Source: Arthrobacter sp. DNA4
GTDB lineage: Bacteria; Actinomycetota; Actinomycetes; Actinomycetales; Micrococcaceae
DNA length: 64,000 nucleotides
Direction of reading: 5' to 3'
Assembly: GCF_024362385.1 (NCBI RefSeq)
Contig: NZ_CP101466.1
Coordinates: forward strand, 3,162,001-3,226,000
The position numbers and the translations under genes were made by a program. This document shows, in pieces, positions 37,552-49,414 of this stretch (position 1 is its first letter; every line of letters starts with the position of its first letter). The notes beneath the pieces are model-generated. The model was not told the DNA's origin, ran no database searches, and saw only the letters and a program-made list of their open reading frames with translations.

Positions 37552-37565
37552 CCTTCCCCTTTACT

Positions 37566-37622
37566 TGCTCCATCAGATATGGCTCCTAAACCGGCGGTTT
37601 AGGAGCCATATCTGATGGAGCA
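37566..37622. repeat. Long palindrome, copy A of a three-member family
   Basis: Two perfect 27-base arms (37566-37592 and 37596-37622) around a three-base loop GGC. The outer part reads TGCTCCATCAGATATGGCTC and the inner part CCTAAACC. There is no T run on either side. Related copies lie at 48296 and 49339; bases that differ between copies have changed on both arms. Confidence 0.92.
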
Positions 37623-37722
37623 TCGCAGGGATTGACGGAGGACTTAGGACCCTGCCAAGACCTGCAGCGCGGGGTGATCCTTGTCCCGTAGTCGTGTGGG
37701 TTTCGGCGGGAAGGAAGGCCGG

Positions 37723-38400
37723 ATGTCGACCGCTCCTGCCGAGGTTAAGCGTCCCCGCCAGGTCTTGCCACTTTTTGCCGTGCTCCTGGTCCTGTTCGCG
37801 GTGGCGGCACTCTGGCCCGTTGTGGGTCGTGTCACCGGCAACGCAGAACTGCCCGTACAAATCGCCGCGAATCTGGCGCCGTTCGCAGTCTTCTTTGGTG
37901 CCGTAGCCTTGGCGGCCCGGTTTGAGGGCATCTCCCTGGCCACCGCCGTCGGGTTCTCGACGCGGCATGCCGTGCGGCAGCTTCTCACCGCCCTGGCGCT
38001 CTTGGCCGCCACACTGGCCTTAACCGTTGCTGCGGCAGCCCTGGGCTTCCGTATGTTCGGCGAAGGGGAGGGCGGGCTGCTGTTCTTCCTGTACGCGGCC
38101 TTCCGCAGTTTCCTGCTGGTGGGCTTTGGGGAGGAGCTCATCTGGCGGGGCTACGTTCTGGGCGCAATGCGCCGAAACATGCACTCCGATGCGGCCGCTG
38201 TCCTGCTGTCTTCGGTGCTCTTCGGGGTGTGGCACTACCCTGGCGGACAGGACGTGCTCCAGGTGCTGATGACCATGCTCTTCGGCGTGCTGTGGGGCAT
38301 GGCCCGCCTAAGGATCCGGCATTGCTCAACGTTCTCCACCGGAACCGCCCACGGGCTGCATGACCTGGCGTTGCTCGTCATCGCCACTCTCACCGCCTGA
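37723..38400 (+). CDS. CPBP/CAAX-type intramembrane metalloprotease
   Basis: 225 residues from ATG 37723, chosen for the AAGGAAG just upstream (a TTG 14 codons earlier is weaker). At least six hydrophobic segments are visible. The CPBP motifs are present: the Glu-Glu-x3-Arg block FGEELIWRGYVLGAMRR, FGVWHYPGG with the second-motif His, and HGLHDL for the third. Bacterial members act in bacteriocin self-immunity or membrane protein processing, and the substrate is not predictable. It converges on tsaD with 11 bp between the stops. Confidence 0.85.
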   Translation: MSTAPAEVKRPRQVLPLFAVLLVLFAVAALWPVVGRVTGNAELPVQIAANLAPFAVFFGAVALAARFEGISLATAVGFSTRHAVRQLLTALALLAATLALTVAAAALGFRMFGEGEGGLLFFLYAAFRSFLLVGFGEELIWRGYVLGAMRRNMHSDAAAVLLSSVLFGVWHYPGGQDVLQVLMTMLFGVLWGMARLRIRHCSTFSTGTAHGLHDLALLVIATLTA

Positions 38401-38411
38401 GTTGCCCGAGG

Positions 38412-39503
38412 TCAGGCCGGAAGCGACACCGAGGTGACGGGCATCGAGGAGTCCGGGGCGAATTCGATGCCGCTGGGTTCGGCACCGGCCATCACCAGCT
38501 GGGCGCCAAGCGCGGCCACCATGGCGCCGTTGTCCGTGCACAAGTCCAGCGGGGGAACGTGCAGCCGGATGCCGGCGGAGGCGCAGCGTTGCCCGGTCAG
38601 TTCACGCAGCCGGGAGTTTGCCGCCACGCCGCCGCCCAGCAGGACGTCCTTGACGCCGTGCTCGCGGCAGGCCAGGACCGCCTTGGAGGAGATCACATCC
38701 ACCACAGCCTCCTGGAACGCTGCGGCAATGTCGGCCACCGGAATCTCTTCGCCACGGGCCTCGAACTGCTCCACGCACCGGGCCACGGCAGTCTTCAGGC
38801 CGCTGAAGGACCAGTCGTACCGGTGGGGGCCCGGTTCACCGGCCGTGCCCATGTACTTGGGCTGGGTCAGGCCTCGGGGGAAGCGGATTGCCTTGGGGTT
38901 GCCGGTACGGGCCATCTTGTCGATGGCCGGTCCGCCGGGGTAGCCAAGTCCCAGGATGCGGGCCACTTTGTCGTAGGCCTCGCCCGCGGCGTCGTCAATG
39001 GTGGAGCCCAGGAGCTCCACATCGCTGGTGATGCTGTTGATGCGCAGGATTTCGGTGTGGCCGCCCGAGACCAGCAGGGCGCCCAGGTTCTCCGGCAGCT
39101 CCTGCCTGCGGCCCGTGGCGCGGTCGTCCAGGAGCCCCACGCCCACATGCGCCACCAGGTGGTTGATGGCGTACAGCGGCTTTCCGGTGGCCACGGCAAG
39201 CGCCTTGGCAGCACACACACCCACCATCAGCGCGCCGGCAAGCCCGGGCCCGGAGGTGACGGCGATTGCGTCCACCTGTTCCAGGGTGACGCCGGCGTCC
39301 GCGAGGGCCTGTTCCAGGGTGGGAACAAAGGCGTCGAGGTGGGCGCGGGAAGCGATCTCGGGGATGACTCCACCGAAGCGGACGTGCTCGTCCATGGAGG
39401 AAGAGACCGTGTTGGTCAGGAGGGTGGTGCCGCGGACGAGGCCGACGCCGGTTTCGTCGCAGGATGATTCGATGCCCAGTACCAGGGGCTGCGTACGGTT
39501 CAT
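38412..39503 (-). CDS. tsaD: tRNA N6-threonylcarbamoyladenosine transferase TsaD
   Basis: Transfers the threonylcarbamoyl group to A37 of ANN-decoding tRNAs. 363 residues with IESSCDETG near the start, the metal-binding HLVAH, the ASKHA-fold phosphate loops [11 protein letters not shown] and [20 protein letters not shown] and [16 protein letters not shown]. It is the last gene of the alr-tsaE-tsaB-rimI-tsaD run and overlaps rimI by 4 bp. ATG start at 39503. In mycobacteria this operon continues into groES-groEL1; here the two are about 7 kb apart. Confidence 0.97.
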
Positions 39504-40018
39504 GCCTGGCCTGCCTCCGTTGCTTCGTGTCCTTCAGGGTGTGCCGCGGGCAGCTGGAGCCGCATGATGAGGGCATCCACGCCGTCCCGGTAGTAGCGCG
39601 GGCGGACGTGGATCTGTTCGAAGCCGAACCGCAGATAGAGCTGTTGTGCCCGGGGGTTGTCGGCGCGGACCTCGAGCAGGACGTCGGCGGCGCCGCGGTG
39701 CCGGGCCTCGTCAATCAGCTGCGTGAGCAGCGTGCTGCCGATGCCGCGGCCTTCGTAGTCGGGGACGACGGCGATGGTCTGGACGTCCGCGATGGGTTCG
39801 ATGCACATCAGGCCGGCGTAGCCCACGATGCCGCCGCTGGTCTCCGCCACCAGGTAGCGGCGGGTCTCCGGCTGGGAGAGCTCATCCAGGAACATCTGCA
39901 CGGGCCACGCATCAATGGGAAAGAGCCTGTGTTCCAGTGCACCGACGGCAGGCACATCGTCCAGCGTCATGTCCCGGACGGTGACGTCCGCCGCGCGTGG
40001 GTCCGGGGTGCTGCTCAC
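39500..40018 (-). CDS. rimI: Ribosomal protein bS18 alanine N-acetyltransferase RimI
   Basis: 172-residue GNAT enzyme. The fold motifs are [62 protein letters not shown] (acetyl-CoA loop) and [21 protein letters not shown]. The position between tsaB and tsaD is the standard site of rimI in actinobacteria. It probably acetylates the N-terminal Ala of ribosomal protein S18, though mycobacterial RimI is reported to be broader. GTG start at 40018; it overlaps both neighbours by 4 bp. Confidence 0.93.
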
Positions 40019-40686
40019 AATGCCCGCTTCCGTGGTCCGGGGACCTGCGCGTCGGATTCCCGCAGGTACAGGGGGGTGGAGTCCAGCAGGGTGTGTCCTG
40101 CCGCCAGCCGTGCCAGGGCGAACTGGCCAAGGTACAGGGCGTCCGGCTGCTCCGCGGCGAAATCCGGGTGGGCCTGGAGCACGCTGGCGTAGAGTCCCGC
40201 GCCGGCGCCGAACGCAGGCAGGGCAGGGAGGTCAGATGCGAACCCGACGTGGGGGCCATCCTCCAGCACGGGCAGCTGGCCGTCATCCAGGCTGTACCGG
40301 GCCCAGTAGACCTCTTTGCGGCGGGCGTCCGTCACCACCAGGAACTCGGATACGGCGGCGGTGGACTCCGCAACTTCCAGGGCCATCGCGTCCAGGCTCA
40401 CCAGGCCATGCAGCGGCTTGCCCCACACGAAGGCCAGGGTGCGGGCGGTGGCAATGCCGGAGCGCAGCCCGGTGAAGGGGCCCGGACCAACGCCCACCAC
40501 CAGGGCGTCCACGTCCTGCCCGGTCACGCCCGCTGATGCCAGCATGGCGTGGATTCCGGGGGCAAGCACCTCAGCGTGGCTGCGGGTGTCCTCCGTGGCG
40601 AAGCTGGCCAGCACGCTTTCCGGGGCATCATCGGTGACCAGCGCAGCGCTGGCCACCGCCGACGTGTCAATAGCGAGGATCAGCAT
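40015..40686 (-). CDS. tsaB: TsaB, t6A synthesis scaffold
   Basis: 223 residues from ATG 40686 (MLILAIDTSAVASAAL); the earlier in-frame start overlaps tsaE too far. It is the inactive TsaD paralogue that bridges TsaD and TsaE, with the ASKHA hallmarks LAIDTS and VVGVGPGPFTGLRSGIATARTLA. The threonylcarbamoyl transfer motifs of TsaD are absent, as normal for the subunit. It overlaps tsaE by 7 bp and rimI by 4 bp. Confidence 0.95.
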   Translation of the reverse strand: MLILAIDTSAVASAALVTDDAPESVLASFATEDTRSHAEVLAPGIHAMLASAGVTGQDVDALVVGVGPGPFTGLRSGIATARTLAFVWGKPLHGLVSLDAMALEVAESTAAVSEFLVVTDARRKEVYWARYSLDDGQLPVLEDGPHVGFASDLPALPAFGAGAGLYASVLQAHPDFAAEQPDALYLGQFALARLAAGHTLLDSTPLYLRESDAQVPGPRKRAL

Positions 40687-41267
40687 GCCGCTCCCCCGGC
40701 GGGTCCGGCCAGTTCGGGAACGGCGGCCCACCGCGGCCCGTACCCGCGCATCACGATGGTGCGGGGCTCATCCGTGTCTTCGGCGTCGAAGTCCAGGCTT
40801 GCGGAGGTGCCCGCTGCGGCGCTGCCCAGGCCGATCGCACGGTGCAGGTCGATCTCCAGCCGGCTGTCGCTCAGGTGCTCCACGCGCTCATGTCCCCACT
40901 CCACCACCGTCACCGAGGAATCCATGGTGTTTTCGAGGTCGATGTCATCAATCTCCGCCGCCGAGCCCAGCCGGTAGGCGTCCACGTGCACCAGGTCCGG
41001 ACCGCCCGGACGCGGGCCGTCCGGCAGGTTGGGATGGATCCGGACCAGGACGAACGTCGGAGAGATGATGCCCGGGCGGACACCCAGGCCTTCGCCCAGG
41101 CCCTGGGTGAAGGTGGTTTTCCCGGCACCCAGCTCGCCGGACAGCACCAGCAGGTCCCCGGCCTGCAGTACCTCCGCCAGGCGTGCGCCGAAAGCATGCG
41201 TCTGTTCCGCCGTCGTCGCCGTGAAGGTCTTTTCCCAGTTGGCGGGCAGTTCTTCGGGCGTGCTCAT
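40680..41267 (-). CDS. tsaE: TsaE, ATPase of the t6A complex
   Basis: 195 residues from ATG 41267. The Walker A is LSGELGAGKTTFTQGLGEGLG, with the Walker B-like LVHVDAYRLGS and the switch region VTVVEWGHERVEHL. TsaE hydrolyses ATP to drive cycling of the TsaB-TsaD complex. The 40 C-terminal residues past the core (EDTDEPRTIVMRGYGPRW) are longer than in E. coli TsaE. It overlaps alr by 4 bp upstream. Confidence 0.95.
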   Translation of the reverse strand: MSTPEELPANWEKTFTATTAEQTHAFGARLAEVLQAGDLLVLSGELGAGKTTFTQGLGEGLGVRPGIISPTFVLVRIHPNLPDGPRPGGPDLVHVDAYRLGSAAEIDDIDLENTMDSSVTVVEWGHERVEHLSDSRLEIDLHRAIGLGSAAAGTSASLDFDAEDTDEPRTIVMRGYGPRWAAVPELAGPAGGAAC

Positions 41268-42502
41268 GCCGCTCCCGCCTTGCCGGGGACGCCCGCCAGG
41301 GTGTGGCCGGCTTCCGCGCGCTCGTCTTCGTTGATGAAGCGGCGGGGAACACGGGGACTGATCCTGGTCACCACCTCGTAGTTGATGGTCCCGGCGGCGC
41401 GTGCCCACTCGTCAACCGTGGGTCCGCCGTCGGCCCCGTTACCGAACAGCTCCGCCTCCGCGCCCTGCAACGTGGCACCCGATGCCTCCGGACCCAGGTC
41501 GATGACCATCTGGTCCATGGCGATCCGCCCTACTACGGGGTAGGTTTTCCCGGCCACGCGGACGGGGCCGCCGGTGGCAACGCGCGGGACGCCGTCGGCA
41601 TAGCCCAGCGGAATCAGCGCCAGGGTGCTCGCCGTCCTGGTGCGGTAATGCAGCCCGTAGGAGACGCCCTGCCCCTCGGGCACCTCTTTGCACTGCGACA
41701 CCAGGGTGCGCAGCGTCATGGCGGGGCGGAGGCCCAACTCCGCGGACGTCTGCCCGTCGAATGGCGAAAGCCCGTAGATGCCCAGGCCCACACGGACCAT
41801 GTCGAAGTGGGTATCGGGCCGGGAAAGGGTGGCGGGGGTGTTGGCAAGGTGCCGGACCTCAGGATCCACGCCCGCGTCCTCGGCAATGGCCAGGGCCTCC
41901 CGGAATGCGGCCACCTGCTGGTCCGTCTCGGGCCGCTCCGGCTCATCAGCCACGGCCAGGTGCGAGAAGATGCCCACCACGCGCAGCAGCCCCTGGTCCT
42001 GGTACTCCACGGCCTCCCCCACCAGGCGGTCCCATGCCTCGGGCGTTGCGCCGTTGCGGCCCAGCCCGGTGTCCACTTTGAGGTGCACCCGTGCGGGACG
42101 TTCCTGTTCGCGGGCGGCGGCCACGATGCGTTCCAGCTCCCAGCCCGAGCAGCCGATGTCGACGCCGGCAGCCACGGCGGCGCCGAAGTTGCTGTCGGTG
42201 GTGTGCAGCCAGGCGAGGAGGGGCGCGTCGATGCCGGCGGCGCGGAGCGCGAGGGCCTCGGAAATGTGCGCCACGCCCAGCCAGGACGCGCCGGCCTGCA
42301 GGGCTGCACGGGCCACGGGGACCGCGCCGTGCCCGTACGCATCGGCCTTGACCACGGCCATGACTTTCGCGGGGGAAGCAGCGGCGGCAAGCCGGCGGAC
42401 GTTGTGCCGGATGGCCTCCAGGTCGATCACTGCGGACCGCTCATGGCGGGGGTCCGGCCCGGAGGCAGCGCTGAATTCACCGGTTGTTGCGGGGTAGGTC
42501 AC
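41264..42502 (-). CDS. alr: Alanine racemase
   Basis: PLP enzyme that makes D-alanine for peptidoglycan. 412 residues. The PLP-binding Lys is in MAVVKADAYGHGAVPVARAAL, the second catalytic Tyr is in GVSYGLHYRTRT, and LALIPLGYADGVPR and PVVGRIAMDQMVIDLG complete the C-terminal domain. It heads the overlapping alr-tsaE-tsaB-rimI-tsaD operon. GTG start at 42502. About 56 bp separate it from the upstream PfkB kinase gene on the same strand, so the operon may include that gene or have its own promoter. Confidence 0.97.
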   Translation of the reverse strand: MTYPATTGEFSAASGPDPRHERSAVIDLEAIRHNVRRLAAAASPAKVMAVVKADAYGHGAVPVARAALQAGASWLGVAHISEALALRAAGIDAPLLAWLHTTDSNFGAAVAAGVDIGCSGWELERIVAAAREQERPARVHLKVDTGLGRNGATPEAWDRLVGEAVEYQDQGLLRVVGIFSHLAVADEPERPETDQQVAAFREALAIAEDAGVDPEVRHLANTPATLSRPDTHFDMVRVGLGIYGLSPFDGQTSAELGLRPAMTLRTLVSQCKEVPEGQGVSYGLHYRTRTASTLALIPLGYADGVPRVATGGPVRVAGKTYPVVGRIAMDQMVIDLGPEASGATLQGAEAELFGNGADGGPTVDEWARAAGTINYEVVTRISPRVPRRFINEDERAEAGHTLAGVPGKAGAA

Positions 42503-42558
42503 CTAACTGATTCTAGTGCGGGCACTTCGCGCCGAATAATCGGGGCGTCCGGCGCTCC

Positions 42559-43650
42559 TCAGGCGTCCGACAGGTGCGCGATGGTGGCCGCCGCCCGGCG
42601 CTGGGCCGCCAGCGGCACGTCCTCGATGATGTCCGCGAGGAATCCGAAGCGCCGCAGCCATTGGCTCATCTGCCGTTCGGGGCGGGCGTTGGCGCGCTTC
42701 CACCAGTCAGCGATGTCCCCCCAGCCAGGGGCGGCCAGGGATCCGCCAACCTCCTGCACGGCCAGGGAGGCGCACAGGTTGGCAAACCGCAGCCTGTCCC
42801 CGAGCGGCCAACCGGCCAGGGTGCCCACGATGAACGCTGCGTCGAAGCAGTCACCGGCTCCCGTGGGGTCGTGCGCCTTGACCGGAAGCGACGGGACCCA
42901 CTCCTCCTCCCCGGTTTCCGAGTCAACGGCCATGGCCCCCTGCGCTCCCAGGGTCACCACGGCCACCGGTACCCGGTCCGCGAGAGCGTAGAGCGCACTC
43001 CACGGATTGTCCTTGCCGGTGAACGCCATGGCCTCGCGCTGGTTGGGCAGGAAGGCGTAAAAGTACTGCAGGTTGTCGAGCCGCACGGGCGCCCACTCGC
43101 CGCTTGGATCCCACCCCACGTCCCCGAACAAACGCACCCCGGCGGCATGGGCTGCCCGGGCCCACGGCTCAACCTCAAGGCCCACCTCGGCGATGCCGGC
43201 GCGCGCCTGGGGCGGGTCTCCAATCAGCTCGGAGTTTGTCACCGGCGCCGAGTGTCCGTGGGTTACCAGGGAACGGTCGCCGTCCACGCAGAGGGACACC
43301 GTCACCGGCGAGTGCCAGCCCGGGACGCGGCGGGAGAGGCTGAGGTCAACGTGCTCCTGGCCGGAGAGGATCTTCCAGTTGAAGTCGCCGTATCCGTCGT
43401 CCCCGAAAGCCGCTGCCAGGCCGGTGCGCAGGCCCAGCCGCGCGGCGGCGATGGCCTGGTTGGCCACCCCTCCGGGACAGCTGCCCATGCCGTCACTCCA
43501 GATTTCCGTACCTGGTTCGGGCCCGTGCGGGAGGCCGGTAAAGATGATGTCCTGGAAAACGGTCCCGGCCAGCAGGAGATCGAATCCGGGTTCCCCCGGC
43601 GGGCGGACGGCAGCCAGAGGATCGAAGGGGCGGGCTGGCATCGCGTCCAT
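42559..43650 (-). CDS. PfkB-family carbohydrate kinase
   Basis: 363 residues of the ribokinase fold. Signature 1 region is GSCPGGVANQAIAAARLG with the following AAFGDDGYGD; signature 2 is DPTGAGDCFDAAFIVGTLAGW, containing the catalytic Asp. The sugar is not predictable. It is divergently transcribed from the GH4 glycosidase gene, with 91 bp between, so a shared sugar pathway is plausible. The C-terminal 60 residues beyond the kinase core are less conserved. ATG start at 43650; an in-frame ATG three codons later is possible. Confidence 0.87.
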   Translation of the reverse strand: MDAMPARPFDPLAAVRPPGEPGFDLLLAGTVFQDIIFTGLPHGPEPGTEIWSDGMGSCPGGVANQAIAAARLGLRTGLAAAFGDDGYGDFNWKILSGQEHVDLSLSRRVPGWHSPVTVSLCVDGDRSLVTHGHSAPVTNSELIGDPPQARAGIAEVGLEVEPWARAAHAAGVRLFGDVGWDPSGEWAPVRLDNLQYFYAFLPNQREAMAFTGKDNPWSALYALADRVPVAVVTLGAQGAMAVDSETGEEEWVPSLPVKAHDPTGAGDCFDAAFIVGTLAGWPLGDRLRFANLCASLAVQEVGGSLAAPGWGDIADWWKRANARPERQMSQWLRRFGFLADIIEDVPLAAQRRAAATIAHLSDA

Positions 43651-43693
43651 AGTGCGCAGGATACGCCGCGCGGCAGTGCTCCGGTAGGGGCCT

Positions 43694-43714
43694 TGGACAC
43701 GGTATGGACACGGT
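43694..43714. promoter_or_regulatory. Direct repeat TGGACACGGT x2 between divergent sugar genes
   Basis: Two identical 10-base copies, 43694-43703 and 43705-43714, spaced 11 bp apart (one helical turn), lie between the PfkB kinase and GH4 starts. The spacing suits a regulator binding one face of the DNA. No repressor gene is adjacent. Confidence 0.45.
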
Positions 43715-43741
43715 GTCGGAGGTTGGTCCTAGACTGCATCC

Positions 43742-45154
43742 ATGCGGCTTCTGATTGCCGGCGGCGGGGGTTTCAGGGTGCCGCTCATCTACCGGGCGTT
43801 GGTGTCCGGGCCCTTTTCCGGCCTGGTCACGGAGCTGGTGCTGTACGACGTCGATCCCGCCCGCCTGGATGCCGTCACCGCCGTGCTGCGCAGCATGCCG
43901 GCAGGCCAGGGTGCACACCTTCCGGTGCATGCCACCACAGATCTTTCCACTGCCCTCTCCGGCACCTCCATGGTCTTCGCCGCGATCCGGCCCGGCGGCA
44001 CCGCGGGTCGTGTGGCCGATGAGAAGGTGGCACAGGACCTCGGGCTGCTGGGCCAGGAAACCACCGGGGCCGGCGGGATTTCCTACGCTTTGCGGACCAT
44101 CCCGCACATGGTGGGCCTTGCCCTGCTGATGCGCGAGCACTGCCCGGACGCATGGCTGGTCAACTTCACCAATCCGGCCGGAATAGTCACCGAGGCCTTG
44201 CGCCCTGTCCTGGGGAACCGGGTCATCGGGATCTGCGACTCCGCGGGAGGGCTGGTGCACCGGGCGGCACGGGCTGCGGGTGTCCCGTTGCCGGAGGGAC
44301 GGCTCGACGGCGTGGGCTACTACGGGTTGAACCACCTGGGCTGGCTGTACCGGCTGGAGTCCGGCGGACGGGACGTACTGCCCGGCCTGCTTGCTGACGC
44401 CGGGGCGCTCCAGTCGTTCGAGGAAGGCCGGCTCTTCCCGCAACCGTTCCTTGCCGGACTCAGCATGCTGCCCAACGAATACCTGTATTACTACTACCAG
44501 CGCGATTCGGCCCGGCAGGCAATGCAGGCCATGGCACGCACCCGCGGGCAGACCATCCACAACCAGCAGCAGGAGCTGTATCCGCGGCTGGCCGCCGCGG
44601 GCCCGGACGCATACCGGCTGTGGGAGGCGGCGCGGCGCTCCCGCGAAGAGGGGTACCTGGCCGAGGCCCGGCACGACGGCGAGCGCCGGAACGAGGAGGA
44701 CCTGGCCGGCGGTGGCTACGAACGGGTGGCGCTGGCGGCGATGCAAGCACTGGCTGGCGGGGGCGATACCCAACTGATCCTCAACACTGTCAACGCTCTG
44801 CAGGCCCCGTCGGCACCCCCGCCACGCCCCGGCAACCGTGACCTGCTCCAACCCGCCATTCCCGGCCTGCCGTCGGACGCCGTCGTCGAAGTCCCCTGCA
44901 CCGTCACCCCGGCCGGAGCCGTGCCGTTGCCCCAGCAGGAACCGCCGGAACCACACCTGGGCCTGCTCCGGCAGGTCAAGGAGGTGGAACGGCTCGTTGT
45001 CCTGGCCGCGGGCACCGGCAACCGGGATGCCGCCGTCGAGGCCTTCGCCCGGCACCCGCTCGTGGATTCGGCGGACCTGGCCGCGAAGCTGATGGCCGGT
45101 TATGAGCGGGCGTTTCCGGCCTTGGGGAAGATGTGGGAGGGCGGTGGGCGTTAG
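43742..45154 (+). CDS. Glycoside hydrolase family 4 (6-phospho-beta-glucosidase-like)
   Basis: 470 residues with the NAD-dependent GH4 mechanism. The Rossmann loop is IAGGGGFRVPLIYRAL; NFTNPAGIVTEAL, the metal-binding Cys in IGICDSAGG and His in YYGLNHLGW follow. A typical 6-phospho-beta-glucosidase has a longer Gly-Gly-Gly-S start and CN, so the substrate could differ. Loss of the phosphorylated sugar by hydrolysis would feed glycolysis, and the divergent kinase fits this. ATG 43742 starts right after the intergenic direct repeat. Confidence 0.87.
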   Translation: MRLLIAGGGGFRVPLIYRALVSGPFSGLVTELVLYDVDPARLDAVTAVLRSMPAGQGAHLPVHATTDLSTALSGTSMVFAAIRPGGTAGRVADEKVAQDLGLLGQETTGAGGISYALRTIPHMVGLALLMREHCPDAWLVNFTNPAGIVTEALRPVLGNRVIGICDSAGGLVHRAARAAGVPLPEGRLDGVGYYGLNHLGWLYRLESGGRDVLPGLLADAGALQSFEEGRLFPQPFLAGLSMLPNEYLYYYYQRDSARQAMQAMARTRGQTIHNQQQELYPRLAAAGPDAYRLWEAARRSREEGYLAEARHDGERRNEEDLAGGGYERVALAAMQALAGGGDTQLILNTVNALQAPSAPPPRPGNRDLLQPAIPGLPSDAVVEVPCTVTPAGAVPLPQQEPPEPHLGLLRQVKEVERLVVLAAGTGNRDAAVEAFARHPLVDSADLAAKLMAGYERAFPALGKMWEGGGR

Positions 45155-45230
45155 GGGAAGGAGTAATGTTTTATCGGATGCGCACTGAGCCGGCTCCCCT
45201 GACACGCGCCGGCGGCCGGAAGGAGGTCCC

Positions 45231-46496
45231 GTGGCACTGATCCGCAGGGTCGCTTTGCTTTCCCTCCACACCTCCCCCATGGAACAGCCCGGCTCCGGTG
45301 ATGCCGGCGGAATGAACGTCTACATCCGCGAGCTGGCCTCGGCACTGGCCGAGGCAGGCGTGGAAGTGGAGATCTTCACGCGGGCCACCTCAGCCGACCA
45401 GACCGCCGTCGAGCATCCCGACCCCGGCGTGTGCGTGCACAACGTCCTGGCCGGGCCGCCCAGGAAGATCCCCAAGGAGGAACTTCCCGGGCTGCTGCAC
45501 GCCATGGTTGCGGAAATCGAGCAGATCCGCCGCCGCCAGCCGCACGGCCGGTACGACGTCATCCATTCCCACTACTGGGTGTCCGGGATAGCGGGGCTGG
45601 AACTGTCCGAGCTGTGGGGCGTTCCGTTGGTCCACACCATGCACACCATGGCCAAGGTCAAGAACCTGTTGCTGGAGTCCGGTGAGCAGCCGGAGCCCTG
45701 GCGCCGCGAACTGGGCGAGCACCGCATCGTCGACGGCGCGGCCAGGCTTATTGCCAACACCAGCTCCGAGGCCGCCGAACTCGTGTCCCACTACGGCGCC
45801 ACCTACGACCGCATCGACATCGCGCCACCCGGTGTGGACCTGGCCACGTTCACCCCCGCGTTCCGGGCACGGTCCAGGGCGGAGCACGGCGTCAGCCCCG
45901 ACACGTTCCACCTGGTGTTCGCCGGTCGCATCCAGCGCCTAAAGGGCCCCCAGGTCCTGGTCAAAGCCGCGGCGCTGCTGCGGAAGCGTCGCCCGGACAT
46001 TGACCTGCGCGTCACCATCCTCGGTGCGTTGAGCGGCAACAAGGAATTCAACCTCCGCTGCCTGGTGGCGGAAGCAGGAATGGACGACGTCGTCACGCAG
46101 CTTCCGCCGGTGAAGGCACCTGAGCTGGCGTCCTGGTTCCGTGCGGCCGACGTTGTGGTGATGCCTTCCTTCAGTGAATCCTTCGGGCTCGTGGCACTCG
46201 AGGCCCAGGCCTGCGGGACGCCCGTGGTGGCCACCCGGGTTGGCGGGCTCTCCCGCGCCATCTTCCACGGCCGGACCGGGCTCCTGGTGGACGGCCACCA
46301 TGCTGCGGACTGGGCCGATGCCCTGGAATCCCTGTACGACGACCCCGCCACCCGCGAGGACCTGGGCCGCGCTGCCGCCATCCGTGCCCAGAACTCCGGC
46401 TGGCAGCGTACTGCCGCCATAACGCTGGAAAGCTACCATGCCGCCGTCGACAACTTTGTGGGCCGCCGACTGGCCCCGGTGGTTCCGGCTTCCTGA
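45231..46496 (+). CDS. mshA: D-inositol-3-phosphate glycosyltransferase MshA
   Basis: First enzyme of mycothiol synthesis: it transfers N-acetylglucosamine from UDP-GlcNAc to 1L-myo-inositol-1-phosphate. 421 residues, GT-B fold, family GT4. SLHTSPMEQPGSGDAGGMNVY is the diagnostic acceptor-site start, with PPGVDLATF, FAGRIQRLKGPQVLVKA and the nucleotide-binding PSFSESFGLVALEAQACGTPVV. It starts at GTG 45231 with an ideal GGAAGGAGG. ino1, which supplies the inositol phosphate, is 3 kb away, consistent with a mycothiol-producing organism. Confidence 0.93.
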   Translation: MALIRRVALLSLHTSPMEQPGSGDAGGMNVYIRELASALAEAGVEVEIFTRATSADQTAVEHPDPGVCVHNVLAGPPRKIPKEELPGLLHAMVAEIEQIRRRQPHGRYDVIHSHYWVSGIAGLELSELWGVPLVHTMHTMAKVKNLLLESGEQPEPWRRELGEHRIVDGAARLIANTSSEAAELVSHYGATYDRIDIAPPGVDLATFTPAFRARSRAEHGVSPDTFHLVFAGRIQRLKGPQVLVKAAALLRKRRPDIDLRVTILGALSGNKEFNLRCLVAEAGMDDVVTQLPPVKAPELASWFRAADVVVMPSFSESFGLVALEAQACGTPVVATRVGGLSRAIFHGRTGLLVDGHHAADWADALESLYDDPATREDLGRAAAIRAQNSGWQRTAAITLESYHAAVDNFVGRRLAPVVPAS

Positions 46497-46613
46497 CGGT
46501 TCTTCGCAGGCCGCTGCTGGTATCGGGTGCCGTTGGAGCCGGGTGCTGTTAGCTTAGGGGCAGGTCTCCGGCGCCGGTCGGTGCAGGAAAAGACTGCGCA
46601 GGAAAGGACAAGG

Positions 46614-48290
46614 ATGTCTGCTCTCCCCTCTGATCTGGAAATAGCCCGCGCCGCCCGCATCCGCCCCATCGGGGACATCGCGGCTGCGGCCGGGGTCAAT
46701 GCCGATGCTCTGGAACAGTACGGGCGGTACAAGGCGAAAATCGATCCCGCCCGGCTTGCGGCCCCTGCTCCGCACGGCAGGGTGGTGCTGGTCTCGGCCA
46801 TGTCGCCCACGCCGGCCGGCGAGGGCAAATCCACCACCACTGTGGGGCTGGCGGATTCGCTGGCCCGCGCCGGTCACAAGGTGATGATCGCGCTGCGGGA
46901 ACCGTCCCTGGGGCCGGTGTTGGGCATGAAGGGGGGCGCCACCGGCGGCGGCTACTCGCAGGTACTGCCCATGGACGAGATCAACCTGCACTTCACCGGC
47001 GATTTCCATGCGATCACTTCGGCCAACAACGCCCTGATGGCACTGGTGGACAACCATATCTACCAAGGCAACGCACTGAACATCGATCCACGCAGGATGA
47101 CGTTCAAACGCGTCCTGGACATGAACGACCGCTCCCTGCGGGAAGTGGTCATCGGACTGGGCGGACCGACGCAGGGCGTGCCGCGGCAGGACGGGTTCGA
47201 CATCACCGTGGCTTCCGAAATCATGGCTGTCTTCTGCCTCGCCACGGACCTGGCGGACCTCCGCTCACGGCTGGGCCGGATCACGTTCGGCTACACCTAC
47301 GACCGGGCCCTTGTGACCGTGGCAGACCTCGGCGTGGAGGGGGCGTTGACGCTGCTCCTGAAGGAGGCGGTCAAGCCCAACCTGGTGCAGACCATCGCCG
47401 GCACCCCCGCCCTGGTCCACGGCGGCCCCTTCGCCAACATCGCCCACGGCTGCAATTCGCTCATTGCCACGCAGACCGCCCGGCGGCTGGCGGACATCGT
47501 GGTCACCGAAGCCGGCTTCGGGGCTGACCTGGGCGCCGAAAAGTTCATGGACATCAAGGCGCGGTACGGCGGCCTGGCCCCGTCCGCGGTCGTGGTGGTG
47601 GCAACAGTCCGCGCCCTGAAGATGCAGGGCGGGGTGGCCAAGGACCAGTTGGCGCGCCCGGATGTCGCTGCCCTGGAGGCCGGGGTGGTTAACCTCCGCC
47701 GGCACGTGCACAACGTGGAGAAGTTCGGCGTCACCCCCGTGGTGGCCATCAACAAGTTCTCCTCCGATGCGCCGGAGGAACTCGACTGGCTGCTGAAGTG
47801 GTGCGCAGCCGAAGGCGTGCGCGCCGCCGTCGCCGACGTGTGGGGCCGGGGCGGCGGGGGCGACGGCGGCGACGAACTCGCGGCCCTCGTTGCGCAGGCG
47901 GTGGAGGCGCCCAGCAGTTTCCGCCACCTTTATCCCCTGGAGCTGTCCGTGGAGGACAAGATCCGCACCATCGCCCAGGAGATCTACGGAGCCGACGGCG
48001 TGGACTTCTCCGTGCCGGCGCTGAAGCGGCTTGCCGACATTGAGCGGAACGGCTGGGGTTCGATGCCCGTGTGCATGGCCAAGACCCAGTACTCGTTCAC
48101 GGACGATGCCTCACGGCTGGGCGCCCCCAAAGGGTTCACCATCCACGTCCGCGACCTGCTGCCCAAGACCGGTGCGGGCTTCATCGTTGCCCTTACCGGG
48201 GCTGTCATGACGATGCCTGGCCTCCCGGCCGTCCCGGCTGCGCTGCGCATGGACGTGGACGCGGACGGCAACCCGGTCGGCCTCACCTAG
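46614..48290 (+). CDS. fhs: Formate-tetrahydrofolate ligase
   Basis: Makes 10-formyl-THF from formate, THF and ATP. 558 residues from ATG 46614, behind AGGAAAGGA, rather than an upstream start. Motifs are [22 protein letters not shown] (P-loop), [46 protein letters not shown] and the C-terminal [12 protein letters not shown]. The family signature FADIQRG-like stretch is replaced by a Gly-rich [13 protein letters not shown] near 400. It is followed by a palindrome of the family at 48296. Confidence 0.96.
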
Positions 48291-48295
48291 CCCCA

Positions 48296-48362
48296 CTCGT
48301 TGCTCTATCAGATCTGGTCCCTAAAGCCCGGGTTTGGGAACCATATCTGATAGAGCAACGAG
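48296..48362. repeat. Long palindrome, copy B of the family
   Basis: 67 bp with 33-base arms (29 of 33 positions pair) around a single central base at 48329. The outer 18 bases CTCGTTGCTCTATCAGAT pair perfectly. It begins just after the fhs stop and ends 43 bp before the AbiEi/DUF559-type gene. Confidence 0.88.
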
Positions 48363-48405
48363 AGGTGTGGATAAGTTCTGCGAGATGACCGGCTTCCGGT
48401 AAACA

Positions 48406-49332
48406 ATGATCCCCATGCGTCCTGTTTCGCCCCTGCCGGCCCACCTCGAAGCCATCCCCTTCACAGTCGCTGAGGCGCGGGCAGCCAGCCTCACCCGGGG
48501 TCGATTACGTTCTTCCGACCTGGCTTCGGCCGGACGCCTCCTGTATCTGCCGGCAGGCTGGGAGTTCGAACTTCCAGCAATGGCACGGGCCCTCTCCGCG
48601 GCGACTCCCGGAGCGTGGATATCCCACGTAACGGCCGCAAAACTGTTGGGGCTCTGGCTCCCGCCGTGGCTCCAGGACTGCCGGGACCTCCATCTCAGCA
48701 AACCCCGGGCACTGCCGCAGGTCCGGCGGGTCGGCGTCGTAGGGCACACCGTGCTGGTCCATCAGGATGAGACCATGGACTGGCAGGGCATCCGTATCTC
48801 GACACCCGCACGGACATGGCTGGACCTTTGCCGCCTGCTTCCCATGGAACATGCGGTGGCAATCGGCGACCAATTGGTCCGGCAGCCGCACGACGGACTC
48901 GAGCTTCGCACCAAGCCTTGGGCAACGATTCAAGACCTGCGGGAGATGCTGAAGCGGCACCCGAAGATGCAGGGCATTGTGAAGGCCCGCGCCGCCGTCG
49001 AACTGATCCGCGCAGGTGCGGATTCCGCACCCGAAACCTTTCTACGTCTTGCTCTCGTTGACGCCGGATTGCCGGAGCCTGAGCTTCAGGTTCGGATATT
49101 TGCCGATAATGCACACTCGCCGGCCGCGGACCTCGGCTACCGACGGCAAAGGATCGGCATCCAGTACGACGGCGGCCATCACCTCACCCGGGAGCAGCAG
49201 TCACGCGACAATCGGCGGGATGCGGTCTTTCACTCTGCAGGCTGGCGGTACTTCAAATTCAATGCCGACGATCTTGCCAGGAATTTCCGCTGGGCGGTGA
49301 TTCAGATCCGCGCAGCACTGCGGGAGCCTTAA
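48406..49332 (+). CDS. AbiEi-like/DUF559 (Vsr-type nuclease) hypothetical protein
   Basis: 308 residues from ATG 48406 (an ATG three codons later is possible). Residues 1-170 look like the winged-helix lead-in of AbiEi-type proteins (FTVAEARAASLTRGRLRSSDL, WISHVTAAKLLGLWLP). Residues about 200-300 form a DUF559/Vsr-like restriction fold with IGIQYDGGHH, QSRDNRRDAVFHSAGWRYFKF. Relatives are common as single genes in Arthrobacter and similar actinobacteria, with no partner toxin and no proven role. It is flanked on both sides by related palindromes. The reading frame is intact. Confidence 0.75.
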   Translation: MIPMRPVSPLPAHLEAIPFTVAEARAASLTRGRLRSSDLASAGRLLYLPAGWEFELPAMARALSAATPGAWISHVTAAKLLGLWLPPWLQDCRDLHLSKPRALPQVRRVGVVGHTVLVHQDETMDWQGIRISTPARTWLDLCRLLPMEHAVAIGDQLVRQPHDGLELRTKPWATIQDLREMLKRHPKMQGIVKARAAVELIRAGADSAPETFLRLALVDAGLPEPELQVRIFADNAHSPAADLGYRRQRIGIQYDGGHHLTREQQSRDNRRDAVFHSAGWRYFKFNADDLARNFRWAVIQIRAALREP

Positions 49333-49338
49333 ACACCA

Positions 49339-49399
49339 GTTGCTCTATCAGTTTTGGTCCCTAACCAAAAGGTTTAGGGACCAAAACTGATAGAGCAAC
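49339..49399. repeat. Long palindrome, copy C of the family
   Basis: 61 bp with perfect 26-base arms (49339-49364 and 49374-49399) around a nine-base loop. The outer core is GTTGCTCTATCAG followed by TTTTGGTCCCTAA. It lies 6 bp after the stop of the AbiEi/DUF559-type gene and 15 bp before the stop of ino1, between converging genes, where it may also act as a terminator. Confidence 0.92.
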
Positions 49400-49414
49400 C
49401 AGGGCTTTAAGCGG

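Follow-up and report, generated by a model that had tools for sequence, protein, structure and literature searches.

What are the long palindromes that recur at the ends of genes in a 64,000-nt stretch of the Arthrobacter sp. DNA4 genome (contig NZ_CP101466.1, positions 3,162,001 to 3,226,000), and what put them there? An earlier note on this stretch, which we call the window and in whose coordinates positions are given unless stated, had singled out three such palindromes as one family and missed that two of them bracket a single gene, one encoding a predicted nuclease. We found that most genes for nucleases of this type in the genus have a repeat of their own on both sides, that the type of repeat follows the nuclease clade, and that copies of the repeat are commoner in genomes in which the matching nuclease is present. 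With a little more belief than doubt, we explain this as a pairing like that of REPIN palindromes and RAYT transposases, built on an unrelated enzyme: the nuclease would bind its own palindromes and drive their spread and homogenisation.

The nuclease gene and the palindromes on either side of it

Placed in a common register, the three palindromes are each exactly 59 bp long (no strand is assigned to them). Copy A (37565-37623) is solitary and lies 13 nt past the stop codon of a GCS2 (glutamate-cysteine ligase family) gene. Copy B (48300-48358), 9 nt past the stop of fhs (formate-tetrahydrofolate ligase), forms the left border of the nuclease cassette, and copy C (49340-49398) its right border, 7 nt past the stop of the nuclease gene and 16 nt from that of the convergent ino1-like gene. 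Their predicted RNA folds lie far beyond those of shuffled sequences (z = -12.7, -9.9 and -11.2 for A, B and C; 0/200 shuffles equally good). Read directly, the copies form one family, as the earlier note held, with the outer core that it gave and the double changes that it saw between A and C (GGCTCC/GGTCCC and ATAT/TTTT); the inner CCTAAA, said to be shared by all, reads CCTAAC in the left arm of copy C. Copy B is less perfect, with mismatches between its arms (ATCT/ATAT and GGTCCC/GGGAACC). All three begin 7-13 nt beyond a stop codon, as had been claimed, and no identity to a named element emerged, a search of the whole window against Rfam at gathering thresholds returning no match.

The gene between copies B and C (48406-49332, plus strand) starts 47 nt from copy B and encodes a protein of 308 amino acids, in which an AbiEi-antitoxin-like N-terminal part (residues ~6-202) is followed by a Vsr/EDxHD-type domain (~205-308; DUF559/MTES_1575), for which a Vsr/EDxHD homing-endonuclease-type fold was found. 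Residues E210, H259 and D268 are conserved in 125/125 proteins and D242 in 124/125; we read these four as the residues of the EDxHD motif, a reading made without residue-level superposition. The gene is under purifying selection (dN/dS of 0.14 and 0.08 versus two relatives). Related proteins are mostly annotated as 'hypothetical' or 'DUF559 domain-containing', an NCBIfam search returned no family, and a search of solved structures by sequence gave nothing useful. No AbiEii toxin gene was found among the seven neighbouring proteins scanned, the flanking genes being FTHFS and Inos-1-P_synth, and no intron or intein was seen at the locus. The protein had 7 matches among 72,556 plasmid records and 1 among 50,697 phage records, all below 60% identity, and a plasmid or phage origin was rejected; as far as seen it is mainly chromosomal. 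Neither the plasmid nor the phage collection contained a match to copy A.

The promoter region of the gene contains a conserved 9-mer, TGTGGATAA (48366-48374, plus strand), whose reverse complement, TTATCCACA, we take to be the DnaA-box consensus. The exact 9-mer occurs within 150 bp upstream of 103/128 nuclease genes, mostly 45-48 nt from the start, and is absent from both strands of the remaining 548,767 bases of those loci. The window's genome has 28 such sites, whereas the reversed word occurs 6 times; the sites cluster near either end of the chromosome record, and the two nucleases considered here (that of the 59-bp palindrome and that of a 56-bp palindrome described below) each have one upstream. 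Although general in the genus, the motif was found at only 1/29 more distant loci and was accordingly rejected as a feature of the nuclease family as a whole. Its presence suggests that expression of the nuclease may be linked to replication or to DnaA.

Flanking repeats follow the nuclease clade

Relatives of the nuclease occur in 61/61 genomes of the genus; 150 were listed, 130 were taken as loci and 125 had enough flanking sequence for comparison. Comparing the 300 bp upstream with the 300 bp downstream, in either orientation and at a score of at least 30, revealed a shared flank repeat at 102/125 nuclease loci versus 9/284 control genes, two of these nine being nuclease loci themselves. 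The repeat differs by clade (TTGCTCYATCA... in that of the window; CAACGCGGGGTCACTTATGGCCC..., CGATTGCTCCGTAACTGCCGTTTTGAG..., CCCAACTGACTCGCATTTGTTGTCG... and others elsewhere), and the similarity between repeats rises with the identity between nucleases, from a median of 0.12 at 30-40% to one of 0.43 above 80% (6 pairs only).

In 12 cassettes of the first family, that of the window, the palindrome lies 45-48 nt before the start codon (exceptions, 54 and 80) and 6-7 nt past the stop. In 21 cassettes of a second, 56-bp family it lies 46-56 nt before the start in 15 and 3-6 nt past the stop, six cassettes reading 7 nt before the start, probably owing to a mis-chosen start codon. A palindrome shortly upstream of the gene in all 33 cassettes measured is what an operator would look like, and AbiEi proteins have been reported to bind inverted repeats in their own promoters (excerpt of PMC7319586); the palindromes could then serve AbiEi-like autoregulation, the scattered copies titrating the protein or marking regulated genes. 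We hold this to be highly improbable in view of the second copy 3-7 nt past the stop in the same 33 cassettes, the location of the scattered copies at 3' ends, with 1/48 between divergent genes, and the conserved nuclease site, which a regulator would not need.

The nuclease genes themselves hardly change place. Linked by either flank, 24/24, 17/17, 12/12, 6/6 and 4/4 members of individual clades lie at one chromosomal site, and the only clades using more sites are the clade with repeat arrays (four) and one other (three); wide hopping of the gene was rejected on these grounds. Of the two most distant paralogs, one (L009, genome positions 3327191-3327847) has flanks that share a repeat (direct score 59), by eye a 58-bp palindrome, and the other (L008, 661044-661718) has one 56-bp hairpin, upstream only.

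Copies are dispersed and commoner where the matching nuclease is present

An exact pattern search added one further close copy in the window's genome to the three, and a covariance model of the family (R1) found 14 places, of which 12 were kept as members after inspection. Eleven of these have E < 1e-5, and the twelfth (L022) is weak (E = 0.013); of the places dropped, L021 is unlike the family both in sequence and in its length, and L023 is a member of the 56-bp family. The earlier note would have been refuted had its three copies been the only ones in the genome, and they are not. R1 matched 43/61 genomes of the genus, the window's own included (E <= 1e-5), weak matches possibly being palindromes of related families, and the exact pattern was found in 67 stretches, the named relatives being Arthrobacter and Pseudarthrobacter species and others of the stretches being chance matches in unrelated phyla.

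The number of matches to the 59-bp model had a median of 22 in the 14 genomes with a gene at least 70% identical to that of the window (one of them, G037, with a truncated gene) versus 2 in the 47 genomes without it (p = 1e-6). A paralog at genome position 613070 has its own palindrome, that of 56 bp, the model of which (R2) gave 40 matches on both strands of the window's genome, corresponding to ~20 copies. R2 matched 41/41 genomes, with up to 110 matches, and the counts had a median of 57 where a gene of the clade was among those retrieved versus 17 where none was (p = 2e-5), some of the latter genomes possibly having clade genes beyond those retrieved.

In some relatives the repeat takes the form of arrays of 32-bp units, whose rows are often opposed pairs ~13 nt apart, so that a palindrome may be viewed as an array with a single unit in each direction. 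Array units numbered 8, 24, 30, 44 and 19 in relatives G001, G011, G017, G055 and G054, all five with array-type nucleases, and none was found in the window's genome or in G039, whose arrays are of another sequence; the reversed pattern was found in no genome. In G054 the array flanking the nuclease gene is mostly CGCGCTCAC, a form that accounts for 12/19 of the dispersed units of that genome versus 1/106 in the other four.

The two arms of the palindromes change together. Across 59 distinct copies of the 59-bp family, 89.8% of alignment cells pair, and both sides have changed in 141 cells versus 63 +/- 6 in shuffles (0/500 as high), the cells not being independent, as copies at orthologous sites were kept in the set. 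The covariation score (0.237 versus 0.123) was lost when the arms were slid against each other, and base pairs showing any double change (14) were not in excess of shuffles (12.9). In the 56-bp family, 28 copies gave 60 double-changed cells versus 22. The covariation seen at first in three copies therefore persists in the larger set. Its cause can be selection on pairing, template-switch conversion between the arms, or copying, and the data do not separate the three; template-switch correction of quasipalindromes likewise makes both arms change together. The earlier note had proposed that the stem is either selected or copied as a unit: the joint change of the arms stands, and covariation alone need not mean selection on an RNA fold.

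Palindromes at gene ends and at orthologous junctions

The 12 copies in the window's genome lie between convergent (6), codirectional (5) or divergent (1) genes, and 48 copies in relatives are similarly placed (25, 22 and 1, respectively), in counts in which genes are the longest open frames and copies, picked by best score or exact pattern, are those with two called neighbours. At 47/48 of the copies in relatives, at least one flanking gene ends towards the copy, the facing stop being at a median distance of 11 nt. Such positions are those expected if the palindromes were bidirectional terminators or mRNA 3' protection hairpins, and the nuclease a genomic-island gene insulated by chance; moreover, at the site of copy A another hairpin takes the place of the palindrome in 10/30 genomes. 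Unlike an intrinsic terminator, in which a hairpin is followed by a T run, none of the three copies is directly followed by one, in agreement with the earlier note, and only 7/85 family copies have TTTT within 12 nt on either side. Terminators of this bacterial group may, however, do without a T run. Termination requires neither a fixed length of 59 or 56 bp nor a conserved primary sequence, and it leaves the clades' own repeats and the repeat upstream of the nuclease promoter unexplained. We consider this explanation unlikely as a whole, and termination may be a by-product.

Comparing occupied with unoccupied orthologous junctions (nine comparisons covering four junctions in all, one of which accounts for six) revealed a spacer of up to 38 nt in the place of the palindrome, and no obvious target-site duplication. 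At one junction, relative G011 has a copy that the window's genome lacks. That the copies have a fixed length, are scattered at the 3' ends of genes and are present or absent at orthologous junctions bears out the suggestion that these are REP-like elements or small mobile units (REP, repetitive extragenic palindrome), copied as units.

Exchange of the cassette at the fhs-ino1 site

We examined the fhs-ino1 site at 30 loci, 28 of which were usable (those of G027 and G035 were too short). Ten loci have a nuclease at least 71% identical to that of the window with the 59-bp palindrome on either side. Twelve have a nuclease of 51-56% identity downstream of an array with a period of 31-32 (degenerate in G036), with an opposed repeat on the far side of the gene in 9/12 (inverted score >= 30), and in 5/28 usable loci there are arrays without a nuclease gene. 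In G034, the closest relative examined, the block that begins just past the stop of fhs and ends just ahead of that of the ino1-like gene (48297-49412, no strand assigned) is replaced whole, with 95-96% DNA identity on both sides of it. Two loci show altered cassettes: in G037 (L132) the 5' part of the nuclease gene is missing and one palindrome is left, this genome having the most family matches of any (48), and in G002 (L143), one of the twelve array loci, the array-type nuclease is inverted between its repeats, as expected from recombination between inverted repeats.

Replacement of the cassette as a unit and arrays without a gene recall nuclease-driven homing, in which the palindrome would be the cleavage site, the whole cassette would be copied in, and solitary palindromes would be empty targets or scars; the EDxHD homing-endonuclease fold and residues also fit. 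We regard homing as quite improbable, given that most clades occupy one chromosomal site, which indicates that the gene itself rarely moves, and that the dispersed copies are mostly without a nuclease gene. Each of these three alternatives, termination, homing and operator function, may nonetheless be partly true.

A proposed mechanism

The explanation that we prefer, a nuclease paired with its own palindrome, has two parts. One is the nuclease gene, with an AbiEi-like DNA-binding part and a Vsr/EDxHD endonuclease domain, a gene that occurs as a single copy in its clade and almost always at the same site; the other is the nuclease's own palindrome (the 59-bp inverted pair here, 32-bp arrays in some relatives), found on both sides of the gene and scattered at gene 3' ends. 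The AbiEi-like part would bind both arms as a dimer, the Vsr-type domain would nick or cut within or beside the palindrome, and repair from another copy would spread the palindrome to intergenic sites and convert existing copies. AbiEi relatives bind inverted repeats, and a solved relative of the catalytic domain forms a dimer on its target, which is nearly 60 bp long (excerpt of PMC3943268). The sequences themselves establish the physical association, the matching of repeat and nuclease, the dispersal, polymorphism at some sites, the covariation and a conserved putative active site; binding, cleavage and mobilisation are our inference. Conversion between copies would, as we propose, keep length and symmetry while the sequences of the arms drift together.

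Several observations weigh against this explanation. Neither transposition nor a target-site duplication nor any nuclease activity was seen, the present/absent comparisons are concentrated at one junction (six of nine), and we are not aware of any cutting enzyme by which elements of this kind are inserted. A shared flank repeat was not detectable at 23/125 nuclease genes, and the rank correlation between repeat and nuclease, though exceeded in 0/500 permutations, is weak (rho = 0.13; loci at non-orthologous sites). Nuclease relatives occur in 30/198 genomes of a phylum-wide sample, and outside the genus a repeat shared between the flanks reached a score of 40 or more at only 10/27 loci, where swapped pairs, assessed in the inverted orientation alone, have a 99th percentile of 32. 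One of these loci, L326, may be an artefact, with its score of 300. Three of the 12 array loci at fhs-ino1 (those of G054, G051 and G036) are without an opposed array (inverted scores 20-24). In addition, 29/47 genomes without a matching gene still have 59-bp matches, which are many or strong in G011, G017 and G054. Copies must therefore persist after loss of the gene or move in its absence; weak matches may come from related families.

Relation to known enzyme-repeat systems

To our knowledge, REP-type palindromes are known with one sort of partner enzyme only, the Y1 RAYT transposases. The REPIN/RAYT (TnpA-REP) systems combine dispersed extragenic palindromes with a distinct single-copy enzyme gene beside each repeat type, in several pairs per genome (excerpt of PMC3116915). 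The same combination is found here: the window's genome contains 12 copies of the 59-bp family and ~20 of the 56-bp family, and each repeat type goes with one distinct single-copy enzyme gene, though at 102/125 genes. The systems differ in the enzyme, an AbiEi-Vsr/EDxHD nuclease here and a Y1/HUH transposase in RAYT, and in the repeats, which here are single long hairpins (56 or 59 bp) or arrays of 32-bp units. A search for the Y1 (RAYT-type) transposase (PF01797) gave no match in the window's genome and was positive in 5/14 control genomes. The pairing works like REPIN/RAYT and is not a member of it, because the defining Y1 enzyme was searched for and not found. A REPIN/RAYT-like arrangement appears to have evolved here around an unrelated enzyme, and no Y1 transposase was found in the genome concerned. 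As an enzyme-repeat dyad the pairing is of a known sort, with a real chance of being a class of its own.

Other known systems share single features with the pairing. With the EDxHD homing endonucleases (I-Bth0305I) and Vsr the nuclease has in common the fold of the catalytic domain and, as we read them, the conserved E, D, H and D residues; it differs from them in its AbiEi-like part, in the flanking of the gene by its own palindromes and in a locus free of any visible intron or intein. It differs from the AbiEi antitoxin of the type IV toxin-antitoxin system AbiE in being fused to a nuclease, with no AbiEii toxin in the neighbourhood scanned. Like miniature inverted-repeat transposable elements, the palindromes are short non-coding inverted repeats at scattered intergenic sites, but they are fully palindromic, of fixed length and, in the nine comparisons, without obvious target-site duplication, a parent transposon having been sought among Y1 transposases only.

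No named family matching the palindromes was found, and the earlier note knew of none. For the pairing of a DUF559/AbiEi nuclease with palindromes, no earlier description was found among the matches listed in the open-licence literature, a weak negative in that some searches covered only parts of the enzyme. In an excerpt of PMC12306157, where REP numbers are given for an Arthrobacter, the word nuclease is absent.

A more far-reaching reading, to which we give somewhat less credence than disbelief, is that the AbiEi-Vsr/EDxHD nucleases and their repeats form a new class of selfish or domesticated dyads. Single-copy nucleases with a DnaA-box-like promoter motif would recognise clade-specific palindromes of 56-59 bp or opposed 32-bp arrays, and would spread and homogenise them in the genomes of actinobacteria by cutting and repair, without a transposase, as an independently evolved counterpart of REPIN/RAYT with several pairs per genome. 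For the many unexplained palindromes and tandem arrays of Arthrobacter and related bacteria the pairing supplies a candidate enzyme, and for the widespread DUF559/AbiEi fusion family it offers a first hypothesis of function; how palindromic repeats can spread without a transposase becomes a question that a single protein and a 59-bp oligonucleotide would suffice to test directly.

The copy A site in relatives

Examining the site downstream of the GCS2 gene, where copy A lies, at 30 loci (L150-L179) revealed the palindrome in 12, a different hairpin in 10 and neither in 8, some of which seem to have another gene downstream. The alternative is a conserved two-stem hairpin, GGGGCACTTCGRCACGGACACG...AAGTGCCCC, with one partial match only (L045) elsewhere among the loci retrieved. 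In the window, a CAAX-protease-like gene (PF02517; 37681-38400) lies between the GCS2 and tsaD-like genes, and in several relatives the tsaD-like gene directly follows GCS2 beside the copy A site, without the CAAX-protease-like gene.

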